DNA of 64,000 nt from Amantichitinum ursilacus (GTDB taxonomy: Bacteria; Pseudomonadota; Gammaproteobacteria; Burkholderiales; Chitinibacteraceae), in NCBI RefSeq assembly GCF_001294205.1, contig NZ_LAQT01000002.1, forward strand, positions 62,001 to 126,000. The letters run 5' to 3'. The position numbers and the translations under genes are program-made. This document shows, one piece after another, positions 3,201 through 17,249 of the stretch. The notes beneath the pieces were generated by a model, which saw only the letters and a program-made list of their open reading frames with translations, searched no databases and was not told where the DNA came from. The first letter of the stretch is position 1; each line of letters starts with the position of its first letter.

Positions 3201-3338
3201 GATTGCTGCTCCTGTTTCTGTGGTCATACAGCGGGGTATTCAGCGTGCGCGTTTGCGCTAACTTGCGGTACGGCGCGCTGTATTCCGCGTCGATCCAGTT
3301 CTTGTCGTGCCGCTTGATTTATCGGGTGGCCCGGGCGT

Positions 3339-4388
3339 TCAGGACGCCTGCGCCGCCCAGGCATTCAAGCGGTTGTAAAGCGTTTTAAGGCTCACCCCCA
3401 GCACGATGGCGGTCTGACGTTTGTCGCCATCAAAGTGCTGCAGCGTGGCCAGAATCGCGTCGCGTTCCATCTCGGCCAGCGACTGGCCCACGCGCCACGT
3501 CAGTGTTTCTTGCGCTTCGTCCTGCGGGCTCCAGCTGCTGAGCGGGGCCACCGAGGCGGCATCCAGCGCATGGTCGGCCAGGATGTAAGCGCGTTGCACG
3601 CAGTTTTTAAGCTCGCGCACATTGCCGGGCCAGTCGTAACTGGCCAGCCGGGCTTCGGCTTCGGCGGTAAATTTTTTGCTGGTGCCGTACTGGCGATTCA
3701 TTTCAGCCAGAAAGTGGCGCGCCAGCATCAGCACATCGCCCTCGCGCGCACGCAATGGCGGCAGATTGATCGGGAACACGGCCAGCCGGAACATCAGATC
3801 GCGGCGCAATGCGCCGGCGCTGATGGCTTCAGCCGGATCACGGTTGGTGGCGGCCACAATGCGCGCCGTGCAAGTCAGTTCTTCGGTGCCGCCCAGGCGG
3901 GTAAATTCGCCGGTCTCCAGCACCCGCAACAGTCGCGCCTGCAAATCGGGCGACATGGCGGTAATTTCATCAAGGAACAAGGTGCCGCCCGCAGCGCGTT
4001 CAAACACACCGGCGTGGGTACGTTGCGCGCCCGCGAATGCACCTTTTTCATAACCAAACAATTCGGCTTCCAGCAATGTCGGCGAAATCGCGCCGCAGTT
4101 CACCGGCACAAACGGGCCCGCGCTCCGGCTGCTTTTTTCGTGCACGGTTTGCGCCACCAACTCTTTGCCACAGCCCGATTCGCCGAGGATCAGTACCGGC
4201 ACATCGGTGGGCGCAACGCGTTCGATCATCGCAAACGCCTGACGCAACGATTTGCTGCCGCCAAACATCCGGCCAAATTGCTGGCCATCGTGGTTGGCAG
4301 CGTGACGCGCGCTGGCGGGCTGATCGGCATAGCCCAGCAGTGCGTCATCCATAAAACCGGCAATCCGTTCGTTATGCGTCTTGAGCAT
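3339..4388 (-). CDS. PspF-like sigma-54-dependent activator with a GAFAGA loop
   Basis: A 349-residue bacterial enhancer-binding protein without a receiver or sensor domain; only about 45 residues precede the AAA+ module. Visible motifs are Walker A GESGCGKE (69-76), the sigma-54-contact loop at 116-121, Walker B GGTLFLDE (134-141), ATNRD at about 180-184 and WPGNVREL (253-260). A Fis-type helix-turn-helix closes the protein (about 310-343, KRQTAIVLGVSLKTLYNRL). The contact loop reads GAFAGA where the family has GAFTGA; the codon at 4032-4034 is GCG rather than an ACN Thr codon. The gene is transcribed toward the PRC-barrel and BON genes and follows katE, so control of that stress block is plausible but unproven. 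Confidence 0.88.
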   Translation of the reverse strand: MLKTHNERIAGFMDDALLGYADQPASARHAANHDGQQFGRMFGGSKSLRQAFAMIERVAPTDVPVLILGESGCGKELVAQTVHEKSSRSAGPFVPVNCGAISPTLLEAELFGYEKGAFAGAQRTHAGVFERAAGGTLFLDEITAMSPDLQARLLRVLETGEFTRLGGTEELTCTARIVAATNRDPAEAISAGALRRDLMFRLAVFPINLPPLRAREGDVLMLARHFLAEMNRQYGTSKKFTAEAEARLASYDWPGNVRELKNCVQRAYILADHALDAASVAPLSSWSPQDEAQETLTWRVGQSLAEMERDAILATLQHFDGDKRQTAIVLGVSLKTLYNRLNAWAAQAS

Positions 4389-4530
4389 TTGTATGTTTTC
4401 TCCGCGATGCGTCGCTGATGCGAGTGGTGTCTGGCGCCGCCGGCGCGTGGTTGTACAAATTGCGCAGGCTGGCCATGCCAGAGTAAAGCTTGCAGCGGCC
4501 TGTCACATTTGGACCGCGTCCGGTTCTTTT

Positions 4531-4568
4531 GTAGGCGGGCGGCCACACGCTGTCGGCCGCCTGCCTAC
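4531..4568 (-). other. Long hairpin downstream of katE
   Basis: A 14-bp stem with one mismatch (4531-4544 with 4555-4568) and a 10-nt loop lies 16 nt after the katE stop. On the minus strand it is followed by AAAAGAA, not a T-run, so it is not a classical intrinsic terminator. It may protect the katE mRNA 3' end. Confidence 0.4.
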
Positions 4569-4584
4569 GTGCCCAAAGCGACCG

Positions 4585-6693
4585 TTACGCAGCCACCTTG
4601 TCCACGCCCGGACGGTCCCAGAAACGATGGAAACGCATGGCGTGCAACAGGTCTTGCGGCACGCTCTTGCCGGTGCTGTCGGCCACCACAATGCCTTGGT
4701 CTTTCAGCGCTTGCGGATCGGTGCCGATGTCGGCCAACGGCAGGTTGGCGTCGTCCAGCACAGCAGCGGCATTCACGCCCACGGCGATCGGTTTGCAATG
4801 CATGAACGCTTCGGCCACAAAGGCCTTGGCTTTACCCAGCAAACGCAGGCCGTCGATATGTTCTTTGCCACCCGGCACAAACACAGCGTCGTACAACACC
4901 GAGCGCGTGTTTTCCAGCGTGGCATCGGGCGTCACGCTATTGCCTTTGCTGTCTTTAACCGGCGCCAACGTCGGCGCAATCAGGTGCCAGCTGACTTGCT
5001 CGGCTTTCAGGGCGGCTTGCAGCGCAGCCACTTCGGCGGCGTCGTGGCCTTCGCCCGCGATGATCGCCACTTTGCGACCGGCCACCGAACCACCCGGATG
5101 CACCATCGACAATGCGGGCGACGGCTTGTATTGCGGGGCCAGCTTCGGCGCGGGAATGGCGGGGGCGACCAGGCCCAGGCCCTTGGCCACTTCGCCAGCC
5201 AGTTCGGCGTCGATATGCGCCAGGTTTTCTACTACACGTTCGCGCACTTGCAGCGTGTCGCACTTCGACAATTCAAACTTCAGCGCATTCTGCAAATGCT
5301 TTTGCTCGGCCGGGGTCAGGCTGACGTAGAACAGCGTGGCCTGGCTGTAGTGGTCGGCAAACAGTTCGGGCTTGGCGCGCAAGAACTCGCCGTCCGCCTT
5401 TTGCGGAAACTCTTCATAACCGCCGGGCAGCTTGCCGATATGGGCCGGGGCGTCGGTTTGCAGCGAGCTGGGCGCATAGGCCACGCGGCCCATATCCACG
5501 CGTTGCTGGCTAAAGCCATCGCGCTGGAAGTTATGCACGGGACAGACCGGGCGGTTGATGGGGATCTGCGCAAAGTTGGGGCCACCCAGACGCAGTAATT
5601 GCGTGTCGGTATAGGAGAACAGGCGGCCTGCCAGCAGCGGATCGTTAGTAAAGTCGATGCCGGGCACCACGTGGCCGGGGTGGAAGGCCACTTGTTCGGT
5701 TTCAGCAAAGAAGTTGTCCGGGTTGCGGTTGAGCGTCATCTTGCCCAGCTTGGTTACCGGAATCACTTCTTCGGGGATGATCTTGGTCGGGTCGAGCAAG
5801 TCGATCTTGAGCTTGGCCGCGTCGGCTTCGCTGATGATCTGCACGCCCAGTTCCCATTCCGGGTACACGCCGTTTTCGATGGCTTCCCACAGGTCGCGGC
5901 GATGGAAATCCGGATCTGCGCCGTTGGTTTTGAGTGCTTCGTCCCATGCCACGCCGTGCGTGCCCAGCAGCGGCTTCCAGTGCCATTTAATAAACTGGCT
6001 TTCGCCTGCGGCATTGATAAAGCGGAAGGTGTGCACGCCAAAGCCTTCCATCATGCGATAGCTGCGCGGAATGGCACGATCCGACATCACCCACATGATC
6101 ATGTGGAACGATTCGGGCGTCAGCGAGATGAAGTCCCAGAACGTATCGTGCGCGCTGGCGGCTTGCGGAATCTCGTTATTGGGTTCCGGCTTTACCGAAT
6201 GGACAAAGTCGGGAAACTTGATGGCGTCCTGAATAAAGAACACCGGAATGTTATTGCCCACCAGATCAAAGTTGCCTTCGTCGGTGTAGAACTTGACGGC
6301 AAAGCCACGCGCGTCACGCGCCAGATCGGCCGAACCACGCGAACCGGCGACGGTGGAAAAGCGCACAAACACCGGCGTTTGTTTGGCCGGATCTTGTAGA
6401 AAGCCGGCCTTGGTGTATTTCTCGTTGCCCGGATAGGCCTGGAACACGCCATGCGCAGCCGCGCCACGTGCGTGCACGATGCGCTCAGGGATGCGTTCAT
6501 GGTCAAAGTGAGTAATCTTTTCGCGCAGCACAAAGTCTTGCAGCAGCGACGGGCCACGCACACCGGCCTTCAGCGAATTAGCGTCATCGCTTTCTTTAAG
6601 GCCTTGTTGCGTGGTGATGTTGACCGGATCGAATTCGCGGCGAGCGGCTTCGATAGCGGGCAGATCGGAAGGGGCACCGGGTTTTTGGGGCAT
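4585..6693 (-). CDS. katE: Catalase HPII (large-subunit monofunctional haem catalase)
   Basis: A 702-residue large-subunit catalase that disproportionates hydrogen peroxide. The distal His is H74 in [12 protein letters not shown], the distal Asn is N147 in LVGNNIP, and the proximal Tyr lies in [11 protein letters not shown]. After the catalase core and helical domain comes the flavodoxin/DJ-1-like C-terminal domain typical of HPII (from about residue 550, [16 protein letters not shown]). GGAG about 8 nt upstream supports the ATG at 6693. Length and domain order match the E. coli KatE class. The gene is followed by a sigma-54-type activator and stress-protein genes. Confidence 0.96.
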
Positions 6694-6881
6694 GGCAGTT
6701 CTCCACGGTTAAGCGCGGCAGGCGCGAAGAGGGATAGGGGAATATCGGATCAACGAGACTGTAACCTTGCTGCTTGCACCAGGCTGTCTACGGTCGGATG
6801 AATAGCGGGTAGGAATTGGCTGGGAAAATGTAGGTGTGTTGCAAGAAACTGCGTGGCCTGCGCGCGGCGGCGCACGACGGA

Positions 6882-6905
6882 AAACGGCCCCCGAAGGGGC
6901 CGTTT
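6882..6905. terminator. Bidirectional intrinsic terminator after the PEP-CTERM gene
   Basis: A perfect 10-bp stem (6882-6891 with 6896-6905) with CGAA loop, AAACGGCCCC / GGGGCCGTTT, with a T-rich end on both strands. It lies 67 bp after the stop of the PEP-CTERM gene. Confidence 0.85.
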
Positions 6906-6971
6906 ATTGGCAAGTCGGATACGGGCGTTCAGTAACGATCAAGCGATCATCAAACCCGCGGTACTACGGTC

Positions 6972-7496
6972 TTACTTTTGCTTGCGACGGCGAGCCGCCA
7001 CCAGCGCAACCAGACCCAGACCCATCAGGGCATAGGTTTCCGGTTCCGGGATCGGGGCCGAGACGTCCACCGTGCTCAGTTCCCACGAGAATTTGCCGCT
7101 GTAGTCAGCCGGATTGCACCAGCTGGTATTGCGATCGGCCAGCGCGATCAGACCGGCAAACAGGCGCACATTGGTAGCGCTGCTGAGGTCGAAATCAACG
7201 GTTTCAGACCAGCTGGTGCCGTTGACCTTGTCATACGAATAGCTGACCGGCTTGAAGATGTTCCAGTTTTCCAGCAGGGCGTAGCCCACTTTGAACGATT
7301 CAGCGGCCTTGCTGGTAAAGCTGAAGGTCAGGCTGTAATCGCCAGCGGCCAGCGAGCCAAAGTTAAGGCCAGTCCAGCCGGTGGTCCAGACGGTTTTGTT
7401 CTTGATGTTGGTGCTGCCCGAATCAATGACTTTGGCGCTGGCCATGCCAGACGCGAGTGCCATGCCCAGGAGTGCAACTGCGGCAAGTTTTTTCAT
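6972..7496 (-). CDS. PEP-CTERM sorting domain protein
   Basis: A 174-residue secreted protein. It has an N-terminal signal peptide (MKKLAAVALLGMALASGMASA), a beta-rich middle with a FxFTSKAAESFKVG-type region, and a C-terminal sorting signal: PEPETYALMGLGLVALVAA followed by RRRKQK. Proteins with this tripartite tail are substrates of exosortase/EpsH systems in exopolysaccharide-producing Gram-negatives. No exosortase lies in this window. A perfect terminator follows. The function of the mature part is unknown. Confidence 0.9.
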   Translation of the reverse strand: MKKLAAVALLGMALASGMASAKVIDSGSTNIKNKTVWTTGWTGLNFGSLAAGDYSLTFSFTSKAAESFKVGYALLENWNIFKPVSYSYDKVNGTSWSETVDFDLSSATNVRLFAGLIALADRNTSWCNPADYSGKFSWELSTVDVSAPIPEPETYALMGLGLVALVAARRRKQK

Positions 7497-8148
7497 GAGT
7501 AAGTGCTCCGAAGGTTTTATGATCGTTGTTCGCTACTGCTGACCCGGATATTAAATTTTCGGTCAGATAAGTCAATATCTTAAAAGCGGCTTAAGAAATC
7601 CCCGTCACAGCTATTTGTTTAAAAAACTGACGCAAGCCGCGCCGTTGCTTGTTCCTGACGGCCAAGCCCTGTTTTGCAAAAATGCTGAATGCCGACGAAA
7701 GGTAAATTCTTTCAGATTAAATCAAGTATTAGCTTACAGTGATATTCGAAAATAGCCCGGTAGATGGCGCTATGCCTGGCGTGTGGCCGGTTATGAAGGC
7801 GCAAGGTTTGCTGCGCGCAGCGGAATATGTTGCGACACGCTTGTAGGCGGAGTTGTCAGGTAGAAATAGCCATGCCGGAGGATGTGAGGAGAGGAGGCAA
7901 CGCGCTGACGGGCCAGAGTGCACACCGACAAGAAGAAGTGGCGTCCGCGCGGCGCACGCGAGATGGGTGAGGCGGGTCACAAGGAAACGTCAGCATAGGG
8001 TGGGACTCGGCGTCCCCGTCAAGACCCACCACCCAAGGCCGCCCGCGCAGAACTGACAAGTTGGCACATCATCGTGAAGCTTAAGCGCAGCGGCATGTCG
8101 CTGATGGCTTTGAATGGTGGGGCCAGCCCCACCCTATGGCGAGAAACT
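7497..8148. other. Gene-poor 650-bp spacer with REP-like element copy A
   Basis: No convincing gene. The left part (about 7540-7740) is AT-rich and probably carries the promoter of the PEP-CTERM gene, but I cannot assign boxes confidently. The right part holds the repeat element annotated at 7994-8141, ending just before the stop of the last gene of the secretion operon. Short reading frames here lack ribosome sites and family resemblance. Confidence 0.6.
7994..8141. repeat. REP-like dispersed element, copy A
   Basis: The element begins CATAGGGTGGG and ends CCCACCCTATGG, so its ends are inverted. The right end forms a perfect hairpin (8116-8123 with 8126-8133, GGTGGGGC / GCCCCACC). Internal blocks CCCAAGG and TGGCTTTGA are shared with copy B at 27713-27814. 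It abuts the 3' end of the secretion operon, where its hairpin could stabilise or terminate the transcript. I infer a REP/BIME-type element from the inverted hairpins; no transposase is nearby. Confidence 0.65.
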
Positions 8149-8664
8149 TCAGCGCACGCGCCCGCCGCCGGTGGGCCATTGCGCAAACTTCCATTCCTGG
8201 TAGTTATCTTTGTTGGCAAAGCCCACATAGCTGGCCGGAAAGTTATCGCGCTTCAGCGGCTTGTCCATCGACTTGCTGTACACGCCCATAAAGCCGCCAC
8301 CGGGCGCGGCGATATACAGCCAGTCTTCGCCGGTAATCGGGTCTTTATACGCATGGCGCAAAAACCGGCGTGGAAACGGCACGCGGTTATCGCTGATCAG
8401 ATCATCCAGCGAATGCGGATATTGCATGGCATTGGCGTTGCCCTGCTCGGTGTAATGCTTGATGGCCATGCGGATTTCGTCGCCTTCGGCCAGCAATTGC
8501 GTTTCTTTCATGCGGCGGATGCGCGTTTGCCAGACGTCGGCCACTTCCGCCAGATAGATGCCGGTAATCAGCACCATCATCAATGCCCACGCGTAGGCAA
8601 AGCCGCGCTGGCGCGTGCCCGACGCCTGGGCGTGCTTACCAGTCTTTGAAATTGCTGCCGTCAT
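8149..8664 (-). CDS. Minor pseudopilin-like protein lacking Glu5
   Basis: Last gene of the secretion operon. A 171-residue product has a short basic N-terminus, then RQRGFAYAWALMMVLITGIY, a prepilin-like hydrophobic helix. Position 5 after the presumed G|F cleavage site is Trp, not the Glu of major pilins, a feature shared with GspK-type tip pseudopilins. A coiled region RRMKETQLLAEGDEIRMAIK follows, then a globular domain with DPITGEDWLYIAAPGGGFMG. The start is uncertain: ATGs at 8682, 8676 and 8664 are in frame and all overlap the upstream gene; I use 8664 for the shortest overlap. It probably caps or initiates the pseudopilus. Confidence 0.7.
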   Translation of the reverse strand: MTAAISKTGKHAQASGTRQRGFAYAWALMMVLITGIYLAEVADVWQTRIRRMKETQLLAEGDEIRMAIKHYTEQGNANAMQYPHSLDDLISDNRVPFPRRFLRHAYKDPITGEDWLYIAAPGGGFMGVYSKSMDKPLKRDNFPASYVGFANKDNYQEWKFAQWPTGGGRVR

Positions 8665-9013
8665 GCGCCTGTCCATCCGCACCGCTTTTAACGTCGTACA
8701 CGCCGGTGCCGTTTTCGGGCGCCGTCACCACCCAGCTATCGCGCTTGCCGGTGATGGGGTCCAGCGGCACTTCGCGCAGATATTTTTTGCTGACCAGTTC
8801 GTCCAGGTTATCGGGATAGCGGCCGGTGTCGGCATCAAACTTGTCGATGGCGTCGCGCATGGCGATCAGGTTGTGGCGCAGCACCACTTCTTGCGCGCGA
8901 TCGGTTTGCTGAAAATAGCGTGGCACCACCAGCGTCAGCAGGCTGGCCATGATGGCCAGAACCACCAGCAATTCGATCAAGGTAAAGCCACGGCGCGAAT
9001 TACGACACAACAT
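8636..9013 (-). CDS. GspG-like pseudopilin
   Basis: A 125-residue type II secretion-like pseudopilin with the class III prepilin signal RRGFTLIELLVVLAIMASLL (cleavage after Gly, Glu at +5). A helix follows (RAQEVVLRHNLIAMRDAIDKFDADTGRYPDNLDELV), then a small C-terminal domain with DPITGKRDSW. It starts 3 nt after the upstream pseudopilin stop and its 3' end overlaps the downstream gene, so translation is probably coupled. Processing would need the prepilin peptidase encoded elsewhere. Confidence 0.85.
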   Translation of the reverse strand: MLCRNSRRGFTLIELLVVLAIMASLLTLVVPRYFQQTDRAQEVVLRHNLIAMRDAIDKFDADTGRYPDNLDELVSKKYLREVPLDPITGKRDSWVVTAPENGTGVYDVKSGADGQAHDGSNFKDW

Positions 9014-9016
9014 CGG

Positions 9017-9502
9017 TCACCACTGTCGATAAGGCACGCCGTTAAGACCGACGCCCTCGGATAAGGAGTAAACATCGTACACGTCGCGTCCTTCTTGCGG
9101 CGAGTCGGGCGGGCTGGCGTAGCTGCGCTTGCCCCAGGTTTCTTCGTTGCTGCGACTGGCGCAATCGCAAAACGGATCACGCGGCAAGCGGCGCAAAAAA
9201 TAAATCTTTTTGGCGGTCGGGTCTTTCAGGTCTTTTACGCCGTCCACTAGCAGGCTTAGCGTGGGCGGGTAGCCGGTTTCATCGATCGATTTGTTGATAC
9301 GGCCATCGTCCACGGCTTGCTTGTACGCATCGATGGCGGCGCGAATCTGCAGCAGATCGCGCTGCAGTTCCTCTTCGCGATTACGCTGCGCGCCGATCTG
9401 CCACAGCGGCAACGCCACCGTGGCCAGTACGGCCAGGATGGTGAGCGTCACCATCAGCTCGATCAGCGTAAAACCGCGCGTGCGCCGGGGCAGCGACGTC
9501 AT
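9017..9502 (-). CDS. Pseudopilin of the type II secretion-like system
   Basis: A 161-residue prepilin with basic leader MTSLPRRTR and the N-methylation signal RGFTLIELMVTLTILAVLAT (Glu at +5). An amphipathic helix EELQRDLLQIRAAIDAYKQ and a C-terminal domain follow. The latter contains RRLPRDPFCDCASRSNEETW, with two Cys that could pair. The ATG at 9502 lies 5 nt after the secretin stop; an in-frame TTG at 9511 overlapping that stop is an alternative. Second of three pseudopilin-type genes after the secretin. Confidence 0.85.
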   Translation of the reverse strand: MTSLPRRTRGFTLIELMVTLTILAVLATVALPLWQIGAQRNREEELQRDLLQIRAAIDAYKQAVDDGRINKSIDETGYPPTLSLLVDGVKDLKDPTAKKIYFLRRLPRDPFCDCASRSNEETWGKRSYASPPDSPQEGRDVYDVYSLSEGVGLNGVPYRQW

Positions 9503-9507
9503 GATCG

Positions 9508-11550
9508 TCAATGCCGCCCCATGGTGCCGCTCTTGGGCAACTGCGTTTCTTGCGCAGGCGCGGGGGGCGGCGTGGGTTGGGCGGGGGGAGGATTGCCCCC
9601 TTGTTGTTGCGGCTGCGGTTGCGGCACTTGCGGTTGCGGCGCCGGCTGGATCGGTTGCTGCACAATCGCCGGATTTTGCTGAATACCCGGGTTGCCCGCG
9701 CCACTGCCCGAGCTATCGATATTGACGGTGGATTTGCTGCGCAAGCGTAGCGGCTCAGTGGAAATCGAACCCTCAGTGCCGCTATCAAATTGCGTGATAT
9801 ACGAACTCGGCAGCGGCAGATTGCGCACCACGTGCGGCGTAATCAACAGCACCAGCTCGGTTTTGCCTTTTGACGTCGATTTGCTACCAAAAATGCGATC
9901 CAGCACCGGCACTTCGCCCAGCCCCGGAATGGCGCTGCCGCTGACCTGATCATTGCGGCTGAGCAAACCACCCAACACCTGGGTTTCGCTATCGCGCGAT
10001 GCCATCACCGTTTCGGCATGGCGCGTACCTACCTGGTACACGCGCAAGCCGGTTTGCGTGGTGATGGTGTCGACGATATTGGACACTTCCAGCGTCACTT
10101 TCATGCTGATATCGCCATCAATCGAAATGGTCGGCTCCACATTCAGCGTCAAACCGACGTCCTGGTAATTGACGTTTTCGCTGGTGACGCCATTGGACGT
10201 GGTATTGGTAATCACCGGCAAGCGATCACCAATCAATATCTTGGCTTTTTCTTTGTTTTTGACGCGGATATTCGGGCTGGCCAATACATTGGTATCGCCC
10301 TTGTCATGCGTCAGATTGGCGGTAATGGTGGGCGAGCCAAAATTGACCAGCACATTGCTGCGGTTAAACGCCGCCAGGTCGGCCAGACTCAAGGCGCCGC
10401 TATATGCGGTATTGGTGGTGGTCGTCGTGGTATCGGTGCCATTGGTGCCGACGGTAGCACTGATGGATTTGGGATATTGAATACCCAGATTCAACAAATC
10501 GGACGTGGTCACTTCGAGGATTTGCGCGCTGATATCCACTTCGGATTGCGGCAGATCAATCGCGGCAATCAAACGCTCGGCCACATCGATGGCTTCGGGC
10601 GTATCGCGCATCACGATCATGTTAAGCCGGTCATCGATATATACGTCGCGGGTTTTGACCATCTGCTTGAGCATGGCCAGCACTTGTTTGGGGTCGGCAT
10701 TGCCGACATAGAACGTGCGCATCACCAGATCTTTGTAATCGCGATCTTTATCCGGGCGCTTGGGGTAAATCAGGATCGTGTTTTCGTTAAGGATTTTTTT
10801 GTCGAGCTGATTGGTGGCCAGCAACAGATTGATGACGTCTTCCACCGTGGTATCGCGGGCAAAAATGGTGGTTTTAAGTTGCGGCGACACATCGCGATCA
10901 AAAATGAAATTGACCTTGCCGATGCGCGAAATAATGTCGAACACGCTGGTTAACGATTGATCGCGGAATTGCAGGCTGATCGGCGTGCGCAATGCCGCGG
11001 CCAATTGTGGCTTTAAGTTGGTGCGATTAAGCCGTGTCTGGATTTCGTCTTTAAGCCGGCGTGCCTGCAGATTGCGCGGATTGTCTTGCAGAATCTGGTC
11101 GACCGTCACCATCGCGTCTTCGGGATGTTCGGTCTTGATCGTGCCCGCGTACTTGAGCATCGAGGCGTGGCGCAAATCCATTTCGATATTGCTGACCACT
11201 TCTTTGGCGCGCAGATTGCCGCTGTCCCATTGCAATACATGCTGGAACGACGCGAGCGCAGTGGCGGTGTCGCCGGTGGCGCGCGCGGCATCGCCCTGTT
11301 TGATCAGGTTCTGCACATAAAACTGACGCTGGCGCTCAAAGGTGGCGCGCAGTTTGATGTCGTCCGGATTGGCGCGCAACTGGTCTTGCAACAGCTTGAG
11401 GCCGCCTTCGGGGTCGCCTTGCAGAATCATTTGCCGGCCCATTTCGGGCGGCGATTGCATACATGCGCTCAGCAGGGCCAGGGGCAGCACAATCGCCAGC
11501 AACAAACGTCGCGGCGGGCTCGAAAACAGGGGTAATGACGCACGCTTCAC
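9508..11550 (-). CDS. gspD: Secretin (GspD/PilQ superfamily) lipoprotein with N-terminal TPR region
   Basis: A 680-residue outer-membrane secretin. A lipoprotein signal LALLSACMQ is followed by a helical, tetratricopeptide-like region (about 35-175). Next is an N0-like domain (ISLQFRDQSLTSVFDIISRI), then N1-type repeats (RTFYVGNADPKQVLAML) and the secretin core (about 330-590: LGIQYPKS, VLASPNIRVKNKEKAKILIG, VGLTLNVEP, ELVLLITPHVV). The tail (about 610-680) is Pro/Gln rich, unlike the S-domain of classical GspD. It overlaps the upstream gene by 4 nt. The N-terminal helical region and tail resemble secretins of MSHA-type or otherwise non-canonical type II-like systems more than GspD of enzyme secretion. 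Confidence 0.9.
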   Translation of the reverse strand: MKRASLPLFSSPPRRLLLAIVLPLALLSACMQSPPEMGRQMILQGDPEGGLKLLQDQLRANPDDIKLRATFERQRQFYVQNLIKQGDAARATGDTATALASFQHVLQWDSGNLRAKEVVSNIEMDLRHASMLKYAGTIKTEHPEDAMVTVDQILQDNPRNLQARRLKDEIQTRLNRTNLKPQLAAALRTPISLQFRDQSLTSVFDIISRIGKVNFIFDRDVSPQLKTTIFARDTTVEDVINLLLATNQLDKKILNENTILIYPKRPDKDRDYKDLVMRTFYVGNADPKQVLAMLKQMVKTRDVYIDDRLNMIVMRDTPEAIDVAERLIAAIDLPQSEVDISAQILEVTTSDLLNLGIQYPKSISATVGTNGTDTTTTTTNTAYSGALSLADLAAFNRSNVLVNFGSPTITANLTHDKGDTNVLASPNIRVKNKEKAKILIGDRLPVITNTTSNGVTSENVNYQDVGLTLNVEPTISIDGDISMKVTLEVSNIVDTITTQTGLRVYQVGTRHAETVMASRDSETQVLGGLLSRNDQVSGSAIPGLGEVPVLDRIFGSKSTSKGKTELVLLITPHVVRNLPLPSSYITQFDSGTEGSISTEPLRLRSKSTVNIDSSGSGAGNPGIQQNPAIVQQPIQPAPQPQVPQPQPQQQGGNPPPAQPTPPPAPAQETQLPKSGTMGRH

Positions 11551-12107
11551 GGCGTTCCTCCGACGGGCAGTGTCTGCACCTGATTCAGCGGTAAATAGGT
11601 AAACGTAATGGCATCACGCGTTACCTGATCGACGCGGTAAATCCCGAGCAGCACTTCTCCTTGTTGTATGCGGCCCAATGCATCGCAGCGAGCGCAGATC
11701 ACATATTGCTGACCACCCACTTCCACCACGATGCGGTCGTTGGCGCCCTCGTGCCAGCTGGCGATCACCTGAAACGGCAACGGCGGCGCCACCGGCTTGG
11801 GTGTGGGCGTGGGTTTGGGCGTTGGGGTAGGGGGCGGTGGCGGCGGTTGCCAGCTCTGGCGCGGAAACAGATCCACCGCGCTGGCGGCGCTGGCGCCACT
11901 GGCGTGCGCCGCCGTGGCCGAGGCATTCATCACCGCGGCCACATGCGCCAGTGCGGCTTCGCTGGCGATGGACGCAATGGCGTGGCTGCGCGCGCGCACC
12001 GGCATCGCGCCCTCGGCGTTTTCATCTTCGTTACGGCCTTGCCACCACGCGTATCCGGTCAGGATGACGGTAATGGCCAGCACAATCTGCAGCGGGCGCG
12101 ACAACAT
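11547..12107 (-). CDS. GspC/PilP-like inner-membrane protein with Pro-rich linker
   Basis: A 186-residue bitopic protein with an N-terminal transmembrane helix (about residues 6-22, LQIVLAITVILTGYAWW) and an Ala-rich periplasmic stretch. A proline linker of PTPKP repeats (about 88-110) follows, then a small beta domain with VICARCDALG (a CxxC pair) and LLGIYRVDQVTRDAITFTYL. The layout matches GspC/PilP proteins that bridge the inner-membrane platform to the secretin, and the next gene is the secretin. As I recall, equivalents in Burkholderiales operons carry the odd label secretion system X translation initiation factor. Assignment is by position and architecture. Confidence 0.7.
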   Translation of the reverse strand: MLSRPLQIVLAITVILTGYAWWQGRNEDENAEGAMPVRARSHAIASIASEAALAHVAAVMNASATAAHASGASAASAVDLFPRQSWQPPPPPPTPTPKPTPTPKPVAPPLPFQVIASWHEGANDRIVVEVGGQQYVICARCDALGRIQQGEVLLGIYRVDQVTRDAITFTYLPLNQVQTLPVGGTP

Positions 12108-12634
12108 CAGCGCACCTCCGTCAGATAGCTCAGCGTGAGTTGCGCGGTCAGGTTGTCGTCGCCGATCTGGCTGCGACTGAACATCAGCGACTCAACGCGC
12201 ACGCCGGGCAGCGCCTGTAGATCGGCAACCAGGCCGCGCAGGTCGGGGTAACGACCTTGCGCCGGAAACTGAATACCAAAGCGCATCAAGTGGCCGTCAC
12301 CTTCGCTGACCGATTTGTATTCGCTTTGGGTGATGGCGACATGGTGCGCGTTGGCCATCTCGGTCAGCTGGCGCAGCATGTCGGTAAATTGATCGGGCGT
12401 ATCCAGCGGCGCGGGCGCGGCGGCTGCGGCGGCGCTGGCCTGGGCTGCCAGGCGCAACTGATGGCGCGCGCTATCGATGGCGATTTCGCGCCGGTCCAAG
12501 TCCTGACTGACCGGCACCACTTGCTGCCGATAAATCAACCAGCCCGCCAGCATCAGCGCCAGGCCCACCCAGCCCAGCAAGCCGGCCTGGCGCGGCCATT
12601 GCCGCATCCACCATAACAAGCGTGCGCTGTTCAT
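12107..12634 (-). CDS. PilO/GspM-like assembly protein
   Basis: A 175-residue bitopic inner-membrane protein. A transmembrane helix at about residues 18-36 (LLGWVGLALMLAGWLIY) is followed by a coiled-coil DLDRREIAIDSARHQLRLAA. The C-terminal ferredoxin-like fold contains FGIQFPAQGRYPDLRGLVAD and ends in a beta strand (TAQLTLSYLTEVR). This is the PilO/GspM architecture: the protein pairs with the PilN-like product of the preceding gene to form the platform. It overlaps both neighbours by 1-4 nt. Confidence 0.78.
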   Translation of the reverse strand: MNSARLLWWMRQWPRQAGLLGWVGLALMLAGWLIYRQQVVPVSQDLDRREIAIDSARHQLRLAAQASAAAAAAPAPLDTPDQFTDMLRQLTEMANAHHVAITQSEYKSVSEGDGHLMRFGIQFPAQGRYPDLRGLVADLQALPGVRVESLMFSRSQIGDDNLTAQLTLSYLTEVR

Positions 12635-13158
12635 CGGCGCACCTCGCGCCAGGTAAATTCCAGCTGCGATTGCGTGGGCTTGAACGGATCAACCACCTTC
12701 AGGCCCTGATGCGCAAACGTTACTTTGCTCACGCGCGGATCGCTGGTCAGGTTGTCGACCAGGCTGAGCGTGTCTTCCAGCGTGCGCGATTCCAGCTCCA
12801 GCTTGATGTCATGGTCGGCGGTGACCACTTCGAGTTTGGTCAGGCCGATATCGTTGCTCCAGTATTCCTCCAGCAAAGCCAGCGCCGGGATCGGGCTGAC
12901 CAACTGGCCTTTGCGGATGGCGGCGACTTTGTCATTCATCGGCGTTTCTTTGCGGGCGGCTTGTTGCGCCTGGTCTTGTTTCTTTTTCAGCCAGGCCACG
13001 TCGTCTTCGCGATCCGACACTTGCTGTTGGCGTTGCCGCACGATGTCTTGCTGTGCCAGCGCCCACAGGATGACCACCACGCCCAGGGCAACCAGCACCA
13101 GGCCGATCCATGGGGTGGTGCTGGGCTTGCGCTGGAAATCAAGTTGCACTGGCTTCAT
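12631..13158 (-). CDS. PilN-like assembly protein
   Basis: A 175-residue bitopic protein with a short cytoplasmic tail MKPVQLDFQRKPSTTPW. PilN proteins use this region to bind PilM. A transmembrane helix (about 18-36, GLVLVALGVVVILWAL), a coiled-coil (QRQQQVSDREDDVAWLKKKQ) and a periplasmic domain follow. It corresponds to PilN or the C-terminal half of GspL. Start and stop overlap the neighbours by 4 nt, a sign of tight translational coupling. Confidence 0.78.
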   Translation of the reverse strand: MKPVQLDFQRKPSTTPWIGLVLVALGVVVILWALAQQDIVRQRQQQVSDREDDVAWLKKKQDQAQQAARKETPMNDKVAAIRKGQLVSPIPALALLEEYWSNDIGLTKLEVVTADHDIKLELESRTLEDTLSLVDNLTSDPRVSKVTFAHQGLKVVDPFKPTQSQLEFTWREVRR

Positions 13159-13988
13159 GCCGCCACCTCGACTGCGGCACGCAGATCTATCGGTTGGCTA
13201 AAGCGCGGATGCACGCCGCCCAGCCACTGGATCGGGCCTTGGCCGGACAAGCTGGATAGCGGGATATCGGACGAGCTGACGTAAATTTGCGCCGGCATGG
13301 TTTCGCCACCCAGCACCGCGGCGTCGCGCACCAGCGCGGTAATCTGATCGGCGTCGGGCGCGTGGTGGGGCGGCGTGGCGTACGGCTGGGTAATCACGCT
13401 GTGCCAGCCTTTGTTAAAGAACAAACAGGTGGCGTATTCGGCTTCCAGCAACACCAGTACAAATTCCCGCGCCTTCAGCCTGGCGTGATGTCGGTTGATT
13501 GCGGTAATCAGCAGCGGCTCGCACTGGCTTAGCCGCAATTTGCTGGCGCGCGCCATTTCGTACACGGTCTGGAACAAACCCTGGTCCACCGCCGCCGCCA
13601 GCCGCGCCTGGCCAAAACCGCCGGGGGCGACGCGAATGCGCCAGGTGTCGGTGGCCACGCCATATTGCTGCGCCAGCAATACGCGCGCGTAGCCTTCCCA
13701 ATCGGCCTCGCGCTTGAGCGATGTTTGCCATGGCATAACGGCATAACGCACCCACGGTGCGCCCATCAACAAATGCAGTTGATCCAGCCCCAGGCTGCCG
13801 CGCGGCGCGTGCGCCAGCAATTGCTGCAAGCGCAACACGGCGTCATCGCCCACCGGTTGCACGGCGGCATGGGCGCGGTGCAATTGCGGCGTGCCTTTTT
13901 TCTGCCCGACGTTGATCCGTGGCCCGCTGGCGAGCAACACGTGGCGGCGGGTCAGCCAGGCGGTGTGCTCAATCCACAAACGTGACAC
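13155..13988 (-). CDS. PilM/GspL-cytoplasmic-like protein of the secretion operon
   Basis: A 277-residue soluble protein encoded between gspE and the pilN-like gene, where type IV pilus and type II secretion operons carry the actin-like PilM or GspL cytoplasmic domain. A stretch near residues 140-190 (FQTVYEMARASKLRLSQCEP) resembles the family pattern in which a helix precedes a Glu-Pro turn. I cannot see clear nucleotide-binding motifs, so the actin-like fold is an inference. It overlaps the gspE 3' end by 20 nt. It would link the GspE-like ATPase to the PilN-like protein. Confidence 0.6.
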   Translation of the reverse strand: MSRLWIEHTAWLTRRHVLLASGPRINVGQKKGTPQLHRAHAAVQPVGDDAVLRLQQLLAHAPRGSLGLDQLHLLMGAPWVRYAVMPWQTSLKREADWEGYARVLLAQQYGVATDTWRIRVAPGGFGQARLAAAVDQGLFQTVYEMARASKLRLSQCEPLLITAINRHHARLKAREFVLVLLEAEYATCLFFNKGWHSVITQPYATPPHHAPDADQITALVRDAAVLGGETMPAQIYVSSSDIPLSSLSGQGPIQWLGGVHPRFSQPIDLRAAVEVAA

Positions 13989-15627
13989 GATTTACTTCCT
14001 GCAAAGTGGTTTCGCCGCGCGCCACAACGGCCATCGCGGCCTGGCGCATGCTTAAAAAGCCCAGACTGGCCGCCAGTTGTTTGACTTCGACCGCAGGCGC
14101 GCGGCCGGCAATCGCTTGTTTCAGTTCGTCGTTAAGGCGCAAGACTTCGGCGATGGCTTTACGGCCCAGATAACCGGTGCCACGACAATGGTTACAGCCG
14201 GTGCCTTTGCGAAAGCGCCAGTGCGCGGTTTGTGCGCGCGTGACGCCCGAGGCCTCTAACAGTTCGTCGTCGGGTGCATCGTCGGTGATGCAATGCGGGC
14301 AGATCTTGCGCACCAGCCGTTGCGCCACCACGCCAATCAGCGCATCGACAAAGCTGTTGGGCTCCACGCCCATATGCATAAAGCGGTCGAGTACGGAAAA
14401 CACGTTGTTAGCGTGCACGCTGGTTAACACCAGGTGGCCCGTTAGCGCCGCTTGCACGGCGATATTGGCGGTTTCGCCGTCACGGATTTCGCCGACCAGA
14501 ATCTTGTCGGGGTCATGCCGCAAAATGGACCGCAACCCACGTGCAAAGCTCAGGCCTTTTTTATCATTGACCGGAATCTGCAGAATGCCTTGCAACTGGT
14601 ATTCCACCGGGTCTTCGATGGTGATGATCTTTTCTTCGCCGGTGTTGATTTCCGACAGCGTGGCGTACAGCGTGGTGGATTTGCCCGAACCGGTGGGGCC
14701 CGTCACCAGCAGCAGGCCATACGGCTCGGTGGCCAGGCCGCGGATATTGGCCATGGTGCTGTCGTCAAAGCCGAGAATATCCAGGCGCAGTTGCTTGAAG
14801 GCATCGCCGCCGTTTTGCTTGTCCAGAATCCGCAGCACCGCGTCTTCGCCATAAATCGACGGCATGATCGAGACGCGGAAATCCACATCGCGGCCATTGG
14901 CCAGCACTTTAAAGCGACCATCCTGCGGAATACGGCGCTCGGAGATATCCAGATCGGCCAATACCTTGATGCGCGAGATCACCTGTTCGGCGGTCTCGAC
15001 GCCGTTGGCGCCGCCGATATGCAATAGCACGCCATCGATCCGGTATTTGATCGACAAGCCGGTGGCGGTGCTTTCCAGGTGGATATCGGAGGCCTTGGAT
15101 TTAAGACCGTCGTACAGCGTGGAGTTGACCAGCCGCACCACCGGCGAGGCATCGCGCGCGATGGCGGCCAGCGAGATTTCGGTAACGCCTTCGTTGCCGG
15201 TTTCGGCATCGGGGCCCGCCTGCATCTGGTCCATGGCGCGATGCGAGGTCTCGAAACTATCCAGCCATGTGCGCACATCGGAGAAATGCGCAAACGCCGT
15301 CACATAGCTGACGTTAAGCCGCTGCTGCGCCCAGTTGCGCGTGATGCGATCAAACGGATCGCCCAATACCAGGCGCAGATGGCCTTCGGTGTCTTCGACC
15401 AGCACACATTGGCGGCCGACGGCTTCGGCATAGGGCAGCAGATCGTAGCGCGGAAACTGCGCGGTCAGCTCGTCGCGGTCCAGCGCAGGCAGGCCCAGAA
15501 AACGGCTGATTTCGGCGCGATAAGTGAGGTCATCCAGCCCCAGCGTTTGCTGGATTTGCAGCGGCAAGGCAGCGTCGGTCTGGGTCTGGCGCAGATGGTT
15601 GATCAGTTCGAGCGTTAGCGCGGTCAT
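13969..15627 (-). CDS. gspE: GspE-like secretion ATPase
   Basis: A 552-residue type II secretion/type IV pilus assembly ATPase. An N-terminal GspE-N-like region (about 1-130) precedes the ATPase core. Visible motifs are Walker A GPTGSGKSTT, an Asp box IITIEDPVEYQL, Walker B ILVGEIRDGETA and the His box LTGHLVLTSVHANN. The zinc-binding C-M type module is present as two Cys pairs, KICPHC and GCNHC, about 35 residues apart. It would hydrolyse ATP to drive pseudopilus growth. It overlaps gspF by 4 nt. Confidence 0.95.
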   Translation of the reverse strand: MTALTLELINHLRQTQTDAALPLQIQQTLGLDDLTYRAEISRFLGLPALDRDELTAQFPRYDLLPYAEAVGRQCVLVEDTEGHLRLVLGDPFDRITRNWAQQRLNVSYVTAFAHFSDVRTWLDSFETSHRAMDQMQAGPDAETGNEGVTEISLAAIARDASPVVRLVNSTLYDGLKSKASDIHLESTATGLSIKYRIDGVLLHIGGANGVETAEQVISRIKVLADLDISERRIPQDGRFKVLANGRDVDFRVSIMPSIYGEDAVLRILDKQNGGDAFKQLRLDILGFDDSTMANIRGLATEPYGLLLVTGPTGSGKSTTLYATLSEINTGEEKIITIEDPVEYQLQGILQIPVNDKKGLSFARGLRSILRHDPDKILVGEIRDGETANIAVQAALTGHLVLTSVHANNVFSVLDRFMHMGVEPNSFVDALIGVVAQRLVRKICPHCITDDAPDDELLEASGVTRAQTAHWRFRKGTGCNHCRGTGYLGRKAIAEVLRLNDELKQAIAGRAPAVEVKQLAASLGFLSMRQAAMAVVARGETTLQEVNRVTFVD

Positions 15628-16796
15628 TGCATGCTCCCGGCTAGCTGGAAGATCGGCATATATAAAAGGAAGACGATGGAGCCGATCATCACGCCGATGA
15701 TCAGCATCAGAATCGGTTCAAACAAACGGGTAAACATATCGATGGCGCGGTCGAGTTCTTCATCACAAAACTGCGCGGCGCGTTCGGCCATGGTGGCCAG
15801 CTCGCCGCTTTGCTCGCCCACGCGCAACAGGCGCTCGGCCACGGGCGTGGTCAGGCCATAACGCGGCAAGGTGGCGGAGACGGTCTGGCCCGCCTTGATA
15901 TCGACCAGCGCACGCGTTAACGCCAGGCGCATCGGGGTGGGCAATAACTGCGCGGCCAGTTCCATCGCGGCTACCACCGACAAGCCGCCCGACAACAACA
16001 AGCCGACCGTGCGATAAAAGCGGGTGAGGGAAAACAGGCGACGATAGCCATCCAGGCTGGGCAAGCGCCAGAACGCTTCCAATAAAGCGGCCTGCACTGC
16101 GGGCGTACGCAACAACACAATCGCCAGCGCGATGGTGCCGACGATGCCGGCAAACAACACCGGGCCATGGTCATGCACCAGATTGCCCCACCACAGCAGC
16201 ACGGCGGCGGCAAAGGGCAGGTCTTTCATGCTGGCGTAAATCTGGCTGAATTTGGGAATCACATAAAACAGCAAAAACAGCATGATGCCGCTGCCGATGC
16301 TGATGATGACGGCCGGGTAAACCAGTGCCGAAATAATCTTCTTTTTGACCGAAGCCAGCCGCGATTCGTAATGGTGGTAGCGCTTGAGCGCATTGGCCAG
16401 GTGGCCGGTCTTTTCGGCCGAGCCCACGGTGGCGATATACAGTGGCGGAAAATGCTCGGGCATCTGGCTGAGCACGCGCGACATCGGCAGACCTTGATAC
16501 AACCCGTCAATCAGCCGCGACAACACCACGCGGTTGCCATCGGCGGCGGCTTTTTCTTTGAGGGTTTCCACCGCCTCGACCAGCGTCAGGCCAGCTTCGA
16601 GCAGCGCGATCAGCTCTTGCGTAAACAGCGAGAGCGCAAATTCACTTTTGCGAAAGCTGACCCGATGCTGGGCGTGCGCCGACACCAGCTCAAGCCCCTG
16701 CGACGACAGGCGCTGCTTGAGCTCGGCTTCGTTGGCGGCCTCCAGGTCCAGCTCTTGCAGCAAGCCGGCCTGGAGCGCTTTGACTTTGTAGCGCAT
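15624..16796 (-). CDS. gspF: GspF-like inner-membrane platform protein
   Basis: A 390-residue polytopic platform protein with two T2SF domains. The first is cytoplasmic (about 60-170, FTQELIALLEAGLTLVEAVE). A transmembrane segment follows near residues 158-180 (IISIGSGIMLFLLFYVIPKF), then a second segment, the second cytoplasmic domain (FYRTVGLLLSGGLSVVAAME) and a final helix (LMLIIGVMIGSIVFLLYMPI). It recruits the ATPase and couples it to pseudopilin assembly. It lies 27 nt after gspG with no strong ribosome site, so translation may depend on the upstream gene. Confidence 0.94.
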   Translation of the reverse strand: MRYKVKALQAGLLQELDLEAANEAELKQRLSSQGLELVSAHAQHRVSFRKSEFALSLFTQELIALLEAGLTLVEAVETLKEKAAADGNRVVLSRLIDGLYQGLPMSRVLSQMPEHFPPLYIATVGSAEKTGHLANALKRYHHYESRLASVKKKIISALVYPAVIISIGSGIMLFLLFYVIPKFSQIYASMKDLPFAAAVLLWWGNLVHDHGPVLFAGIVGTIALAIVLLRTPAVQAALLEAFWRLPSLDGYRRLFSLTRFYRTVGLLLSGGLSVVAAMELAAQLLPTPMRLALTRALVDIKAGQTVSATLPRYGLTTPVAERLLRVGEQSGELATMAERAAQFCDEELDRAIDMFTRLFEPILMLIIGVMIGSIVFLLYMPIFQLAGSMQ

Positions 16797-16823
16797 GGCT
16801 AGGGGTCAGTGACGCGGGCTGCG

Positions 16824-17249
16824 TTACTGAAAATACGAGATATCGGCGTCTTCACCCGTGCCGCCTGGCTTGCCGTCAGCGCCATAGGTGATGAGATCGA
16901 AATCGTGGCCGTTTTCGCCAGGGCGGCGATAAACATAGGGGTGATCCCACGGATCGTTGGGCACGTCCTTGGTCAGATACGGGCCTTGCCATTTGGCTTC
17001 GTCGCCCGGTTTGACGCTAAGTACGGCCAGACCTTGTTCGGTGGTGGGGTAGTGGCCGACGTCCAGCCGGTAATGATCAAGCGCATCGGCCAGCGACTTC
17101 ATCTGGCTGGCTGCGGTTTTCATCTTGGCCTTGCCCACTTCGCCGAACAGCTTGGGGCCGACGTAACCGGCCAACAGCGCAATAATCAACAGCACTACCA
17201 ACAGTTCGAGCAGCGTAAAGCCGCGCTCGCGCAGATTGCTTCGTTGCAT
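16824..17249 (-). CDS. gspG: Major pseudopilin GspG
   Basis: A 141-residue major pseudopilin and the first gene of the 11-gene operon. The prepilin signal is RERGFTLLELLVVLLIIALL (Glu +5). A helix KMKTAASQMKSLADALDHYR follows, then the GspG-type C-terminal domain with YPTTEQGLAVL, GPYLTKDVPNDPWDHPYVYR and GEDADISYFQ. These are the calcium-binding loop and C-terminus typical of true GspG. Length and motifs are close to classical family members, unlike the other pseudopilins of the operon. Confidence 0.95.
   Translation of the reverse strand: MQRSNLRERGFTLLELLVVLLIIALLAGYVGPKLFGEVGKAKMKTAASQMKSLADALDHYRLDVGHYPTTEQGLAVLSVKPGDEAKWQGPYLTKDVPNDPWDHPYVYRRPGENGHDFDLITYGADGKPGGTGEDADISYFQ

Follow-up and report, generated by a model that had tools for sequence, protein, structure and literature searches.

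The window, a 64,000-nucleotide stretch of the Amantichitinum ursilacus genome, contains an operon that very probably encodes a type II secretion-like exporter on a branch of its own. Eleven open reading frames (ORFs), all on the minus strand and overlapping or spaced by no more than about 30 bases, run from position 17249 down to 8149 in the order GspG, GspF, GspE, PilM/GspL-like protein, PilN, PilO, GspC/PilP-like protein, secretin, and three pseudopilins (G-F-E-M-N-O-C-D-2-3-4), as had been read in the initial annotation of this DNA. The operon represents a real, widespread, and distinct branch of machines resembling the type II secretion system (T2SS), known in outline from Geobacter. The association of this family with exosortase is the new and testable part of the analysis.

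Gene set and phylogenetic position

The family forms a well-supported group in three trees, each built with a subset of the loci and few classical and pilus reference rows, MSHA being among the rows on long branches. In the GspE tree, the 35 family rows (support 100/100) stand apart from a clade of PilB and classical GspE (96/91), while MshE and three further rows are not resolved. The secretin tree also unites 35 family rows (98/99). In the GspF tree, the 33 family rows (94/81) join PilC before classical GspF, weakly. The placement of MSHA rests on one long-branch reference. Members of the clade include Betaproteobacteria, Geothermobacter, and Rhodobacterales. On these alignments, the family is its own branch, separate from the reference rows included for the classical T2SS and the type IV pilus.

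The first ORF (16824-17249) encodes a true T2SS-type GspG, the major pseudopilin, which passes NCBIfam TIGR01710 (167.7 bits, cut-off 88.85), matches T2SSG PF08334, and aligns with Escherichia coli GspG, including the C-terminal GADG..GTG.DADI segment. The GspF/PilC-like platform protein (15624-16796), the GspE/PilB-like assembly ATPase (13969-15627), and the secretin (9508-11550) match T2SS and type IV pilus models alike, below the cut-off of every model listed. GspF scores 250 bits against TIGR02120 (cut-off 424), and GspE scores 482 and 464 bits against TIGR02533 and TIGR02538, respectively, with PilB as the best match among PDB sequences. The secretin is not of the MshL type (115 bits against TIGR02519, cut-off 250).

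No meaningful Pfam match (E 0.1) is found for the PilM/GspL cytoplasmic-domain-like protein (13155-13988), the PilN-like inner membrane protein (12631-13158), the GspC-like connector (11547-12107), or pseudopilin 4 (8149-8682). The last has no NCBIfam match either, and we regard the sole Pfam-level match of the PilN-like protein (TMEM51, 0.013) as noise. PilN is placed by its position and size, being conserved in relatives, and the PilO/GspM-like inner membrane protein (12107-12634) by its position and by weak matches to T2SSM PF04612 (E 3.8e-4) and GspM_XpsM (E 9.5e-5), both under the cut-offs. The AlphaFold model of the PilM-like protein (predicted local distance difference test score, pLDDT, 91.2; alignment of 25 rows) resembles PilM (5eoy, E 6.6e-11) and EpsL (1yf5, E 1.4e-10) in Foldseek, which assigns it the actin-like PilM/GspL fold. 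The model of the GspC-like protein (pLDDT 80.9; 23 rows) resembles the GspC-HR domain (3oss, TMt 0.74) and PilP (2y4y, TMt 0.61) with weaker scores, the best E-value being 3.2e-3 and all being over 0.001. The PilM-like and PilP-like predicted folds fit the pilus (PilM, PilP) and T2SS (GspL, GspC) references alike. In the GspC-like protein, a transmembrane helix is followed by a proline linker and then the GspC-HR/PilP-like domain. The linker and the CxxC motif described in the initial annotation are both present. The CxxC is found in all 12 Chitinibacteraceae-type rows and in 0/11 other rows, and it is therefore rejected as a family-wide feature.

The secretin, which carries a lipobox Cys, is a lipoprotein with a TPR-like region near its N-terminus and a Pro/Gln tail, also as initially described. 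Domain scans place STN, one Secretin_N, and the secretin domain between the two. Among 43 aligned secretins, STN, Secretin_N, and Secretin are found in all, TPR_14 in 31, and the lipobox Cys is nearly invariant. We infer that a fused, pilotin-like TPR domain lets the secretin target itself. A cohesin domain is present in 13 of the 43, the secretin of the window not being among them; in an outer-membrane secretin, it is a possible docking site for dockerin-like cargo.

The residue at position +5 of the pseudopilins should be noted. GspK occupies the tip of the filament and lacks Glu+5. In ungapped rows, Glu+5 is present in GspG (103/103), pseudopilin 2 (9017-9511; N_methyl match; 124/124), and pseudopilin 3 (8636-9013; N_methyl and weak T2SSG matches; 122/122), and it is absent from pseudopilin 4 in 102/102 rows. 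The classical GspK of the same genome likewise reads without Glu at +5. Pseudopilin 4 is thus GspK-like, so the four-pilin set, with three ordinary pseudopilins and one GspK-like, is less odd than it appears. The family models scanned recognise none of the minor pseudopilins GspH/I/J/K in the operon, and it has neither a prepilin peptidase, as the initial annotation had observed for both the GspH/I/J set and the peptidase, nor a PilA-type major pilin or a retraction ATPase.

The host genome (G000; G, C, and L numbers are our handles for genomes, contigs, and loci) measures 4.93 Mb in 38 contigs and is 99.75% complete. It does carry the second, classical T2SS for which a search had been proposed: gspC-D-E on C30 (GspD over the cut-off, GspC under it) and GspF, GspI, GspJ, and GspK at C1:145-150 kb, each over the cut-off; C1:147 kb also carries a second GspG. 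The trees, with their few reference rows, support the initial claim that the operon belongs neither to the classical Gsp systems nor to the type IV pili, and since the classical gsp set is a separate one, the refuting outcome named in the initial annotation does not hold. Eight T2SSE ATPase matches are found in this genome. Reading the ORFs by eye, we assign pilB-C-D to C38 and an MSHA-like locus to C3. PilT/U-like ATPases, on C26 only, and a Tad-like ATPase on C8 are likewise labels given by eye, from neighbours and the GspE tree with no family scans. Just one Peptidase_A24 gene is found, within the pilBC locus, suggesting that pseudopilin processing is presumably shared.

Distribution and association with exosortase

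A secretin scan of named genomes gave at least 44 loci, 40 of which are counted as family; L079-L082, with weak partial matches, are excluded. Secretin identity to the window is 56-78% in Chitinibacteraceae-type loci, 36-42% in Thiobacillus, Rhodocyclaceae, Duganella, and other Betaproteobacteria, and 31-33% in Geothermobacter and a metagenome-assembled genome titled Deltaproteobacteria. All 15 Chitinibacteraceae-type loci have the identical 11-gene order, indicating that the arrangement is not due to chance; at the position of the third pseudopilin, three of these loci match the GspG query better. Plasmid records also match (25, of which 11 were examined, most from Burkholderiales). One such operon, on a plasmid of Aliiroseovarius (Rhodobacterales; L099, 5972-15168), has its own A24 prepilin peptidase as its first gene.

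For rates, we sampled 300 genomes across the host's order, counting a family secretin at E<=1e-60 against the secretin profile and a classical GspD at E<=1e-100. The family is found in 111/300 genomes (132 secretin places), including 11/11 Chitinibacteraceae. In a phylum-wide sample, it is found in 6/249 genomes, all six from the same order. Classical GspD is found in 148/300, the two occurring together in 58 genomes, family only in 53, classical only in 90, and neither in 99, which is statistical independence (odds ratio 1.2). Since 53 of the 111 family genomes have no classical GspD hit, the machine can probably stand alone.

From the 132 places, 80 family loci were sampled roughly by score, leaving out the host genome, and 40 classical GspD places in genomes also carrying the family serve as controls. 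Named-genome loci and the 80 share some contigs, and rates are therefore given on the 80. The arrangement was scored solely as E before or after D, as gene-order strings miss genes at misleading ORF starts or overlaps. E precedes D, as in the window, in 63 loci and follows it in 12, while five are partial. Permuting the window order circularly gives the typical rearranged string, O-C-D-2-3-4-(G)-F-E-M-N. All 132 places were classed by the sampled order or the side of the PilM hit, with no disagreement where both are available and 23 left unclassed; G067, G142, and G174 have a window-order copy in addition to a rearranged one. The host genome also contains two copies, the window operon and a copy of rearranged order at C1:404-413 kb (L085, G000:C1:401000-420900, 3315-12362), which groups with loci of Rhizobacter, Roseateles, and Janthinobacterium. 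This second copy is directly followed by a 1631-aa ORF of RHS type with SpvB, TcdB-middle, FG-GAP, and Ig domains, beyond which another large ORF runs past the end of the L085 sequence.

Exosortase (PF09721) is found in 110/300 genomes, and its distribution follows that of the family: both in 73, family only in 38, exosortase only in 37, and neither in 152 (odds ratio 7.9). The Mantel-Haenszel odds ratio is 7.4 within taxonomic families (18 informative strata, p 3e-5), 3.8 within genera (11 informative strata, p 0.0497), 6.3 stratified on genome size, and 5.8 on taxonomic family and size together. Permutation within taxonomic families gives a mean of 62.2 against the 73 observed (p 1e-4). For classical GspD, the odds ratio with exosortase is 1.5 crude, 1.25 within taxonomic families, 0.9 within genera, and 1.1 by size, and in a logistic regression that includes size, the family reaches z 7.1 and classical GspD 0.9. 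By the stratified tests, borderline at the genus level, neither genome size nor common ancestry is likely to account for the link on its own. Among window-order genomes, 63/85 are exosortase-positive versus 37/189 family-negative ones (odds ratio 11.8). Genomes with a rearranged copy and no window-order copy are positive in 2/6 (p 0.053 versus 63/85), those with both orders in 2/5, and unclassed ones in 8/20. The association is strong for the family and for the window order against the background, whereas the difference between the two orders is no more than suggestive.

PEP-CTERM genes also tend to lie near the operon. The gene next downstream of it (6972-7496, same strand, gap of 652 bp) encodes a PEP-CTERM protein, a candidate cargo, with a PF07589 match and a TIGR02595 match, the latter over the cut-off, and a PEP-CTERM gene is similarly close downstream on the same strand in G004, G163, G193, and G221. 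By sequence pattern, such ORFs are near 21/80 family and 5/40 control loci (p 0.10). Two of the control hits (L214, L231) match no NCBIfam model and were removed, while each of the 21 family loci was retained, its tested ORFs matching PEP-CTERM models (in L112 other than TIGR02595), giving 21/80 versus 3/40 (p 0.016). Restricted to exosortase-positive genomes and a distance of about 10 kb, the comparison is 20/48 window-order versus 3/26 classical GspD loci (p 0.009), or 4/26 with one false control hit kept (p 0.036). No PEP-CTERM gene lies within that distance of the 12 rearranged loci, versus 20/63 of window order (p 0.029). Among the matches listed, exosortase lies within 50 kb of a family secretin nine times (about 3.2 expected) and within 20 kb four times (1.3 expected), the expectation assuming one mean size of 3.7 Mb and the 102 exosortase genes among those matches. 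In G036:C18 and G080:C16, the distance is about 6-7 kb.

Farther downstream in the window, an ORF at 4585-6693, read by eye as a catalase, separates the PEP-CTERM gene from a sigma-54 activator with a Fis-type helix-turn-helix (3339-4388, minus strand), about 2.6 kb past that gene. Matches to the sigma-54 consensus are at chance level across the window (53 observed, 56 expected).

Relation to described systems

The nearest described system is the Pul-OxpG T2SS of Geobacter and Pelobacter. The OmpB work on Geobacter Pul is attributed by citing papers to Mehta 2006. The Geobacteraceae Pul system, with the pseudopilins PulG, OxpG, and TklG, is described as required for OmpB secretion (PMC3543383); pulGPQF and OmpB are mentioned in a transcriptomic study (PMC10599522), and OmpB is related to MofA (PMC5566968). 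The Geothermobacter locus L077 lies inside the family clade in all three trees (support 94/81 for GspF) and has GspE, GspF, PilM/N/O/P-like genes, a secretin, and two pseudopilins. It adjoins ftsE/ftsX-like genes, as Pelobacter pul adjoins cell division genes (PMC3543383), and these neighbours are what connects L077 with the published pul genes. Unlike the operon, the Geothermobacter stretch examined has no gspG or pseudopilin 4, and its secretin tail reads cohesin-like. The initial statement that cargo and function are undescribed is thus only partly right, because OmpB secretion reportedly depends on Geobacteraceae Pul, and a further relative, akin by description, is in print for Ralstonia. 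That is the "unorthodox T2SS" of Ralstonia solanacearum, with seven core genes (PMC5080846), likened to the operon by description and not by sequence. The T2SS-like system of Shewanella vesiculosa HM13, which is needed to load P49 onto vesicles, has G, E, F, K, and D homologues without GspCLM/HIJ/N (PMC6971210); it is likened by description only, and its gene order differs. The name "predicted secretion system X", used in the initial annotation, is absent from the open-licence PubMed Central (PMC) papers searched.

The operon shares with the classical T2SS (Gsp/Xcp) a true GspG, a GspK-like pilin by Glu+5, and a GspC-HR-like connector. It differs in its own branch, in the absence of GspH/I/J, in the PilM/N/O-like proteins that replace GspL/M, in a secretin that is a TPR lipoprotein with fewer N domains, and in gene order, which is C-D-E-F-G in E. 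coli. The inner parts may correspond to PilMNOP of the type IVa pilus, and the lack of an own prepilin peptidase is as in MSHA (PMC6668835); unlike both, the operon has a GspG major subunit and no retraction ATPase, and the trees set it apart. The survey of Denise 2019 covers T2SS, T4aP, T4bP, MSH, Tad, Com, and archaeal systems (PMC6668835).

A possible trace of the PEP-CTERM link is already in print. In Haft 2006, export of PEP-CTERM proteins to or through the outer membrane is proposed with the route unnamed, and NE1609, a T2SS protein E, ranks 34th among the PEP-CTERM profile matches, its hits including Tbd_1295, Daro_3223, GSU1783, Pcar_0131, and the R. solanacearum gene RSp0148; in the main text, "type II secretion" and "NE1609" each occur once, in that table (PMC1569441). 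We take NE1609 as a member of the family without sequence proof. MYXO-CTERM and GlyGly-CTERM proteins are said to exit by T2SS (PMC11980579), and in a paper on flocs, the PEP-CTERM protein PepA is linked to type II secretion, with the periplasm given as the destination (PMC9850573). Where examined, the later open-licence PMC literature on PEP-CTERM names no tested outer-membrane route. No open-licence PMC paper found joins PEP-CTERM, exosortase, outer membrane, and pseudopilin, and none joins RHS repeat, pseudopilin, and secretin.

Proposed mechanism, cargo, and alternatives

In the mechanism that we propose, PilD from the pilBC locus would cleave the pseudopilins, and GspE, anchored by PilN/PilO and the PilM/GspL-like protein, would power GspF in assembling GspG and pseudopilins 2 and 3 into a short periplasmic filament with the GspK-like pseudopilin 4 at its tip. 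The GspC/PilP-like protein would join this inner base to the secretin, a lipoprotein with a putative built-in pilotin-like TPR domain, and the filament would push folded periplasmic proteins out through it. The favoured cargo of the window type would be PEP-CTERM surface proteins released by exosortase; in some genomes, enzymes encoded beside the operon, such as GH18 chitinases, may be further cargo. That PEP-CTERM surface proteins are the main cargo of a T2SS-like exporter is our tentative preference, held at somewhat less than even confidence. A more specific form is less probable: that in Betaproteobacteria, PEP-CTERM proteins processed by exosortase cross the outer membrane through the window system, which would be their long-missing exit, and that the family is split into a PEP-CTERM form of window order and an RHS form of rearranged order, both present in the genome of the window. 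The weak contrast of orders by genome lowers its probability.

Several observations weigh against PEP-CTERM cargo. Co-occurrence is not transport, and both systems could mark environmental biofilm formers. Exosortase is not hit in 38 of the 111 family genomes, including 3/11 Chitinibacteraceae (G096, G131, G298), and 37 genomes have exosortase without the family. The within-genus test, with its few informative strata, is barely significant, the gene-order contrast by genome is not significant, and 3/5 genomes with both orders have no exosortase. Classical GspD is also found within 50 kb of exosortase in G013, G027, G032, G076, and G225 (by eye, among the matches listed), and given these pairs the linkage is not shown to be specific to the family. 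In the host itself, exosortase lies on a different contig from the window operon, the PEP-CTERM gene is separated from the operon by its 652-bp gap, and a consensus scan finds no sigma-54 box near the start of that gene. When large Sec-type ORFs in the flanking DNA are counted without bias, no clear excess is seen (p 0.56, 0.056, and 0.27 at 400, 600, and 800 aa). For OmpB, the best experimental lead, we know of no PEP-CTERM link. The authors of the GlyGly-CTERM study, in the part seen, found no special T2SS subclass (PMC3237569).

The same machine may instead export only locally encoded enzymes such as chitinase, proteases, multicopper oxidase, and RHS proteins, the exosortase link being ecological, which we consider possible though not probable. 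The OmpB requirement reported for Geobacter Pul (PMC3543383) is consistent with such private cargo, and RHS-type genes are near 14/80 family versus 0/40 classical loci (p 0.005). However, these go with the rearranged order (7/12) and not with that of the window (5/63), for which RHS proteins as cargo have no significant support versus controls (p 0.15). A GH18 chitinase gene directly precedes gspG on its strand in 5/80 versus 0/40 loci, and in 6/15 of the Chitinibacteraceae-type loci in the named-genome scan, but the excess alone is not significant (p 0.17). No such enzyme adjoins the window operon, and the exosortase odds ratio within taxonomic families would be left unexplained. An M4 protease is near 1/80 family and 1/40 control loci, and astacin and multicopper oxidase are each near 1/80 versus 0/40. 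Assembly of a surface pilus for adhesion, motility, or DNA uptake, and not protein export, is improbable: the PilM-, PilN-, PilO-, and PilP-like parts, the PilB match of GspE, and the weak junction of GspF with PilC fit it, but a true GspG as the major pilin and a conserved GspK-like fourth pilin do not, no retraction ATPase is in the operon, and other pilus-type ATPases, labelled by eye, are already in the genome. More improbable still is an ordinary T2SS some of whose genes have diverged or are absent and which is aided by the classical gsp set. The T2SS-type GspG and the presence of that set in the same genome point to it, but all three trees exclude the operon from the classical clade, and almost half of the family genomes lack a classical GspD hit, the two occurring independently.

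Other neighbours of the operon should be mentioned. A GH18-like upstream gene is seen in L041, L042, L046, L048, L051, L062, L121, L149, L150, L157, and L177, its domains scanned in L042 only; L062 and L157 are apparently one contig, and L177 (taxonomic family f20) is the sole case outside Chitinibacteraceae among the 80. A lytic transglycosylase gene is near 13/80 family versus 0/40 classical loci (p 0.0045), none in Chitinibacteraceae; this cluster and the regulator cluster were tested after being seen. A partly recurring cassette lies beside the operon in L070, L093, L114, L148, L158, L163, L165, L167, and L191 (L070 and L158 probably being one contig). It comprises PEP-CTERM proteins, a regulator of LuxR type as scanned in L070, and, by the annotation of L093, POTRA proteins and others resembling filamentous haemagglutinin. 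Two further genes lie near the operon in L135, L159, L160, L179, and L183. One resembles a secreted protease, with I9 and PA domains in the one locus scanned (L183); the other encodes a PEP-CTERM protein that by model check belongs to the NF038120 family in each of the five. A search of the host genome, run without a positive control, gave no relative of the Ig/cadherin-domain neighbour of L072.

The operon thus belongs to a secretion family that is present in more than a third of the sampled genomes of the order and that the family models scanned do not single out. Because the machine co-occurs with exosortase inside taxonomic families and the classical T2SS does not, the question of how PEP-CTERM proteins exit is reduced to one gene deletion.

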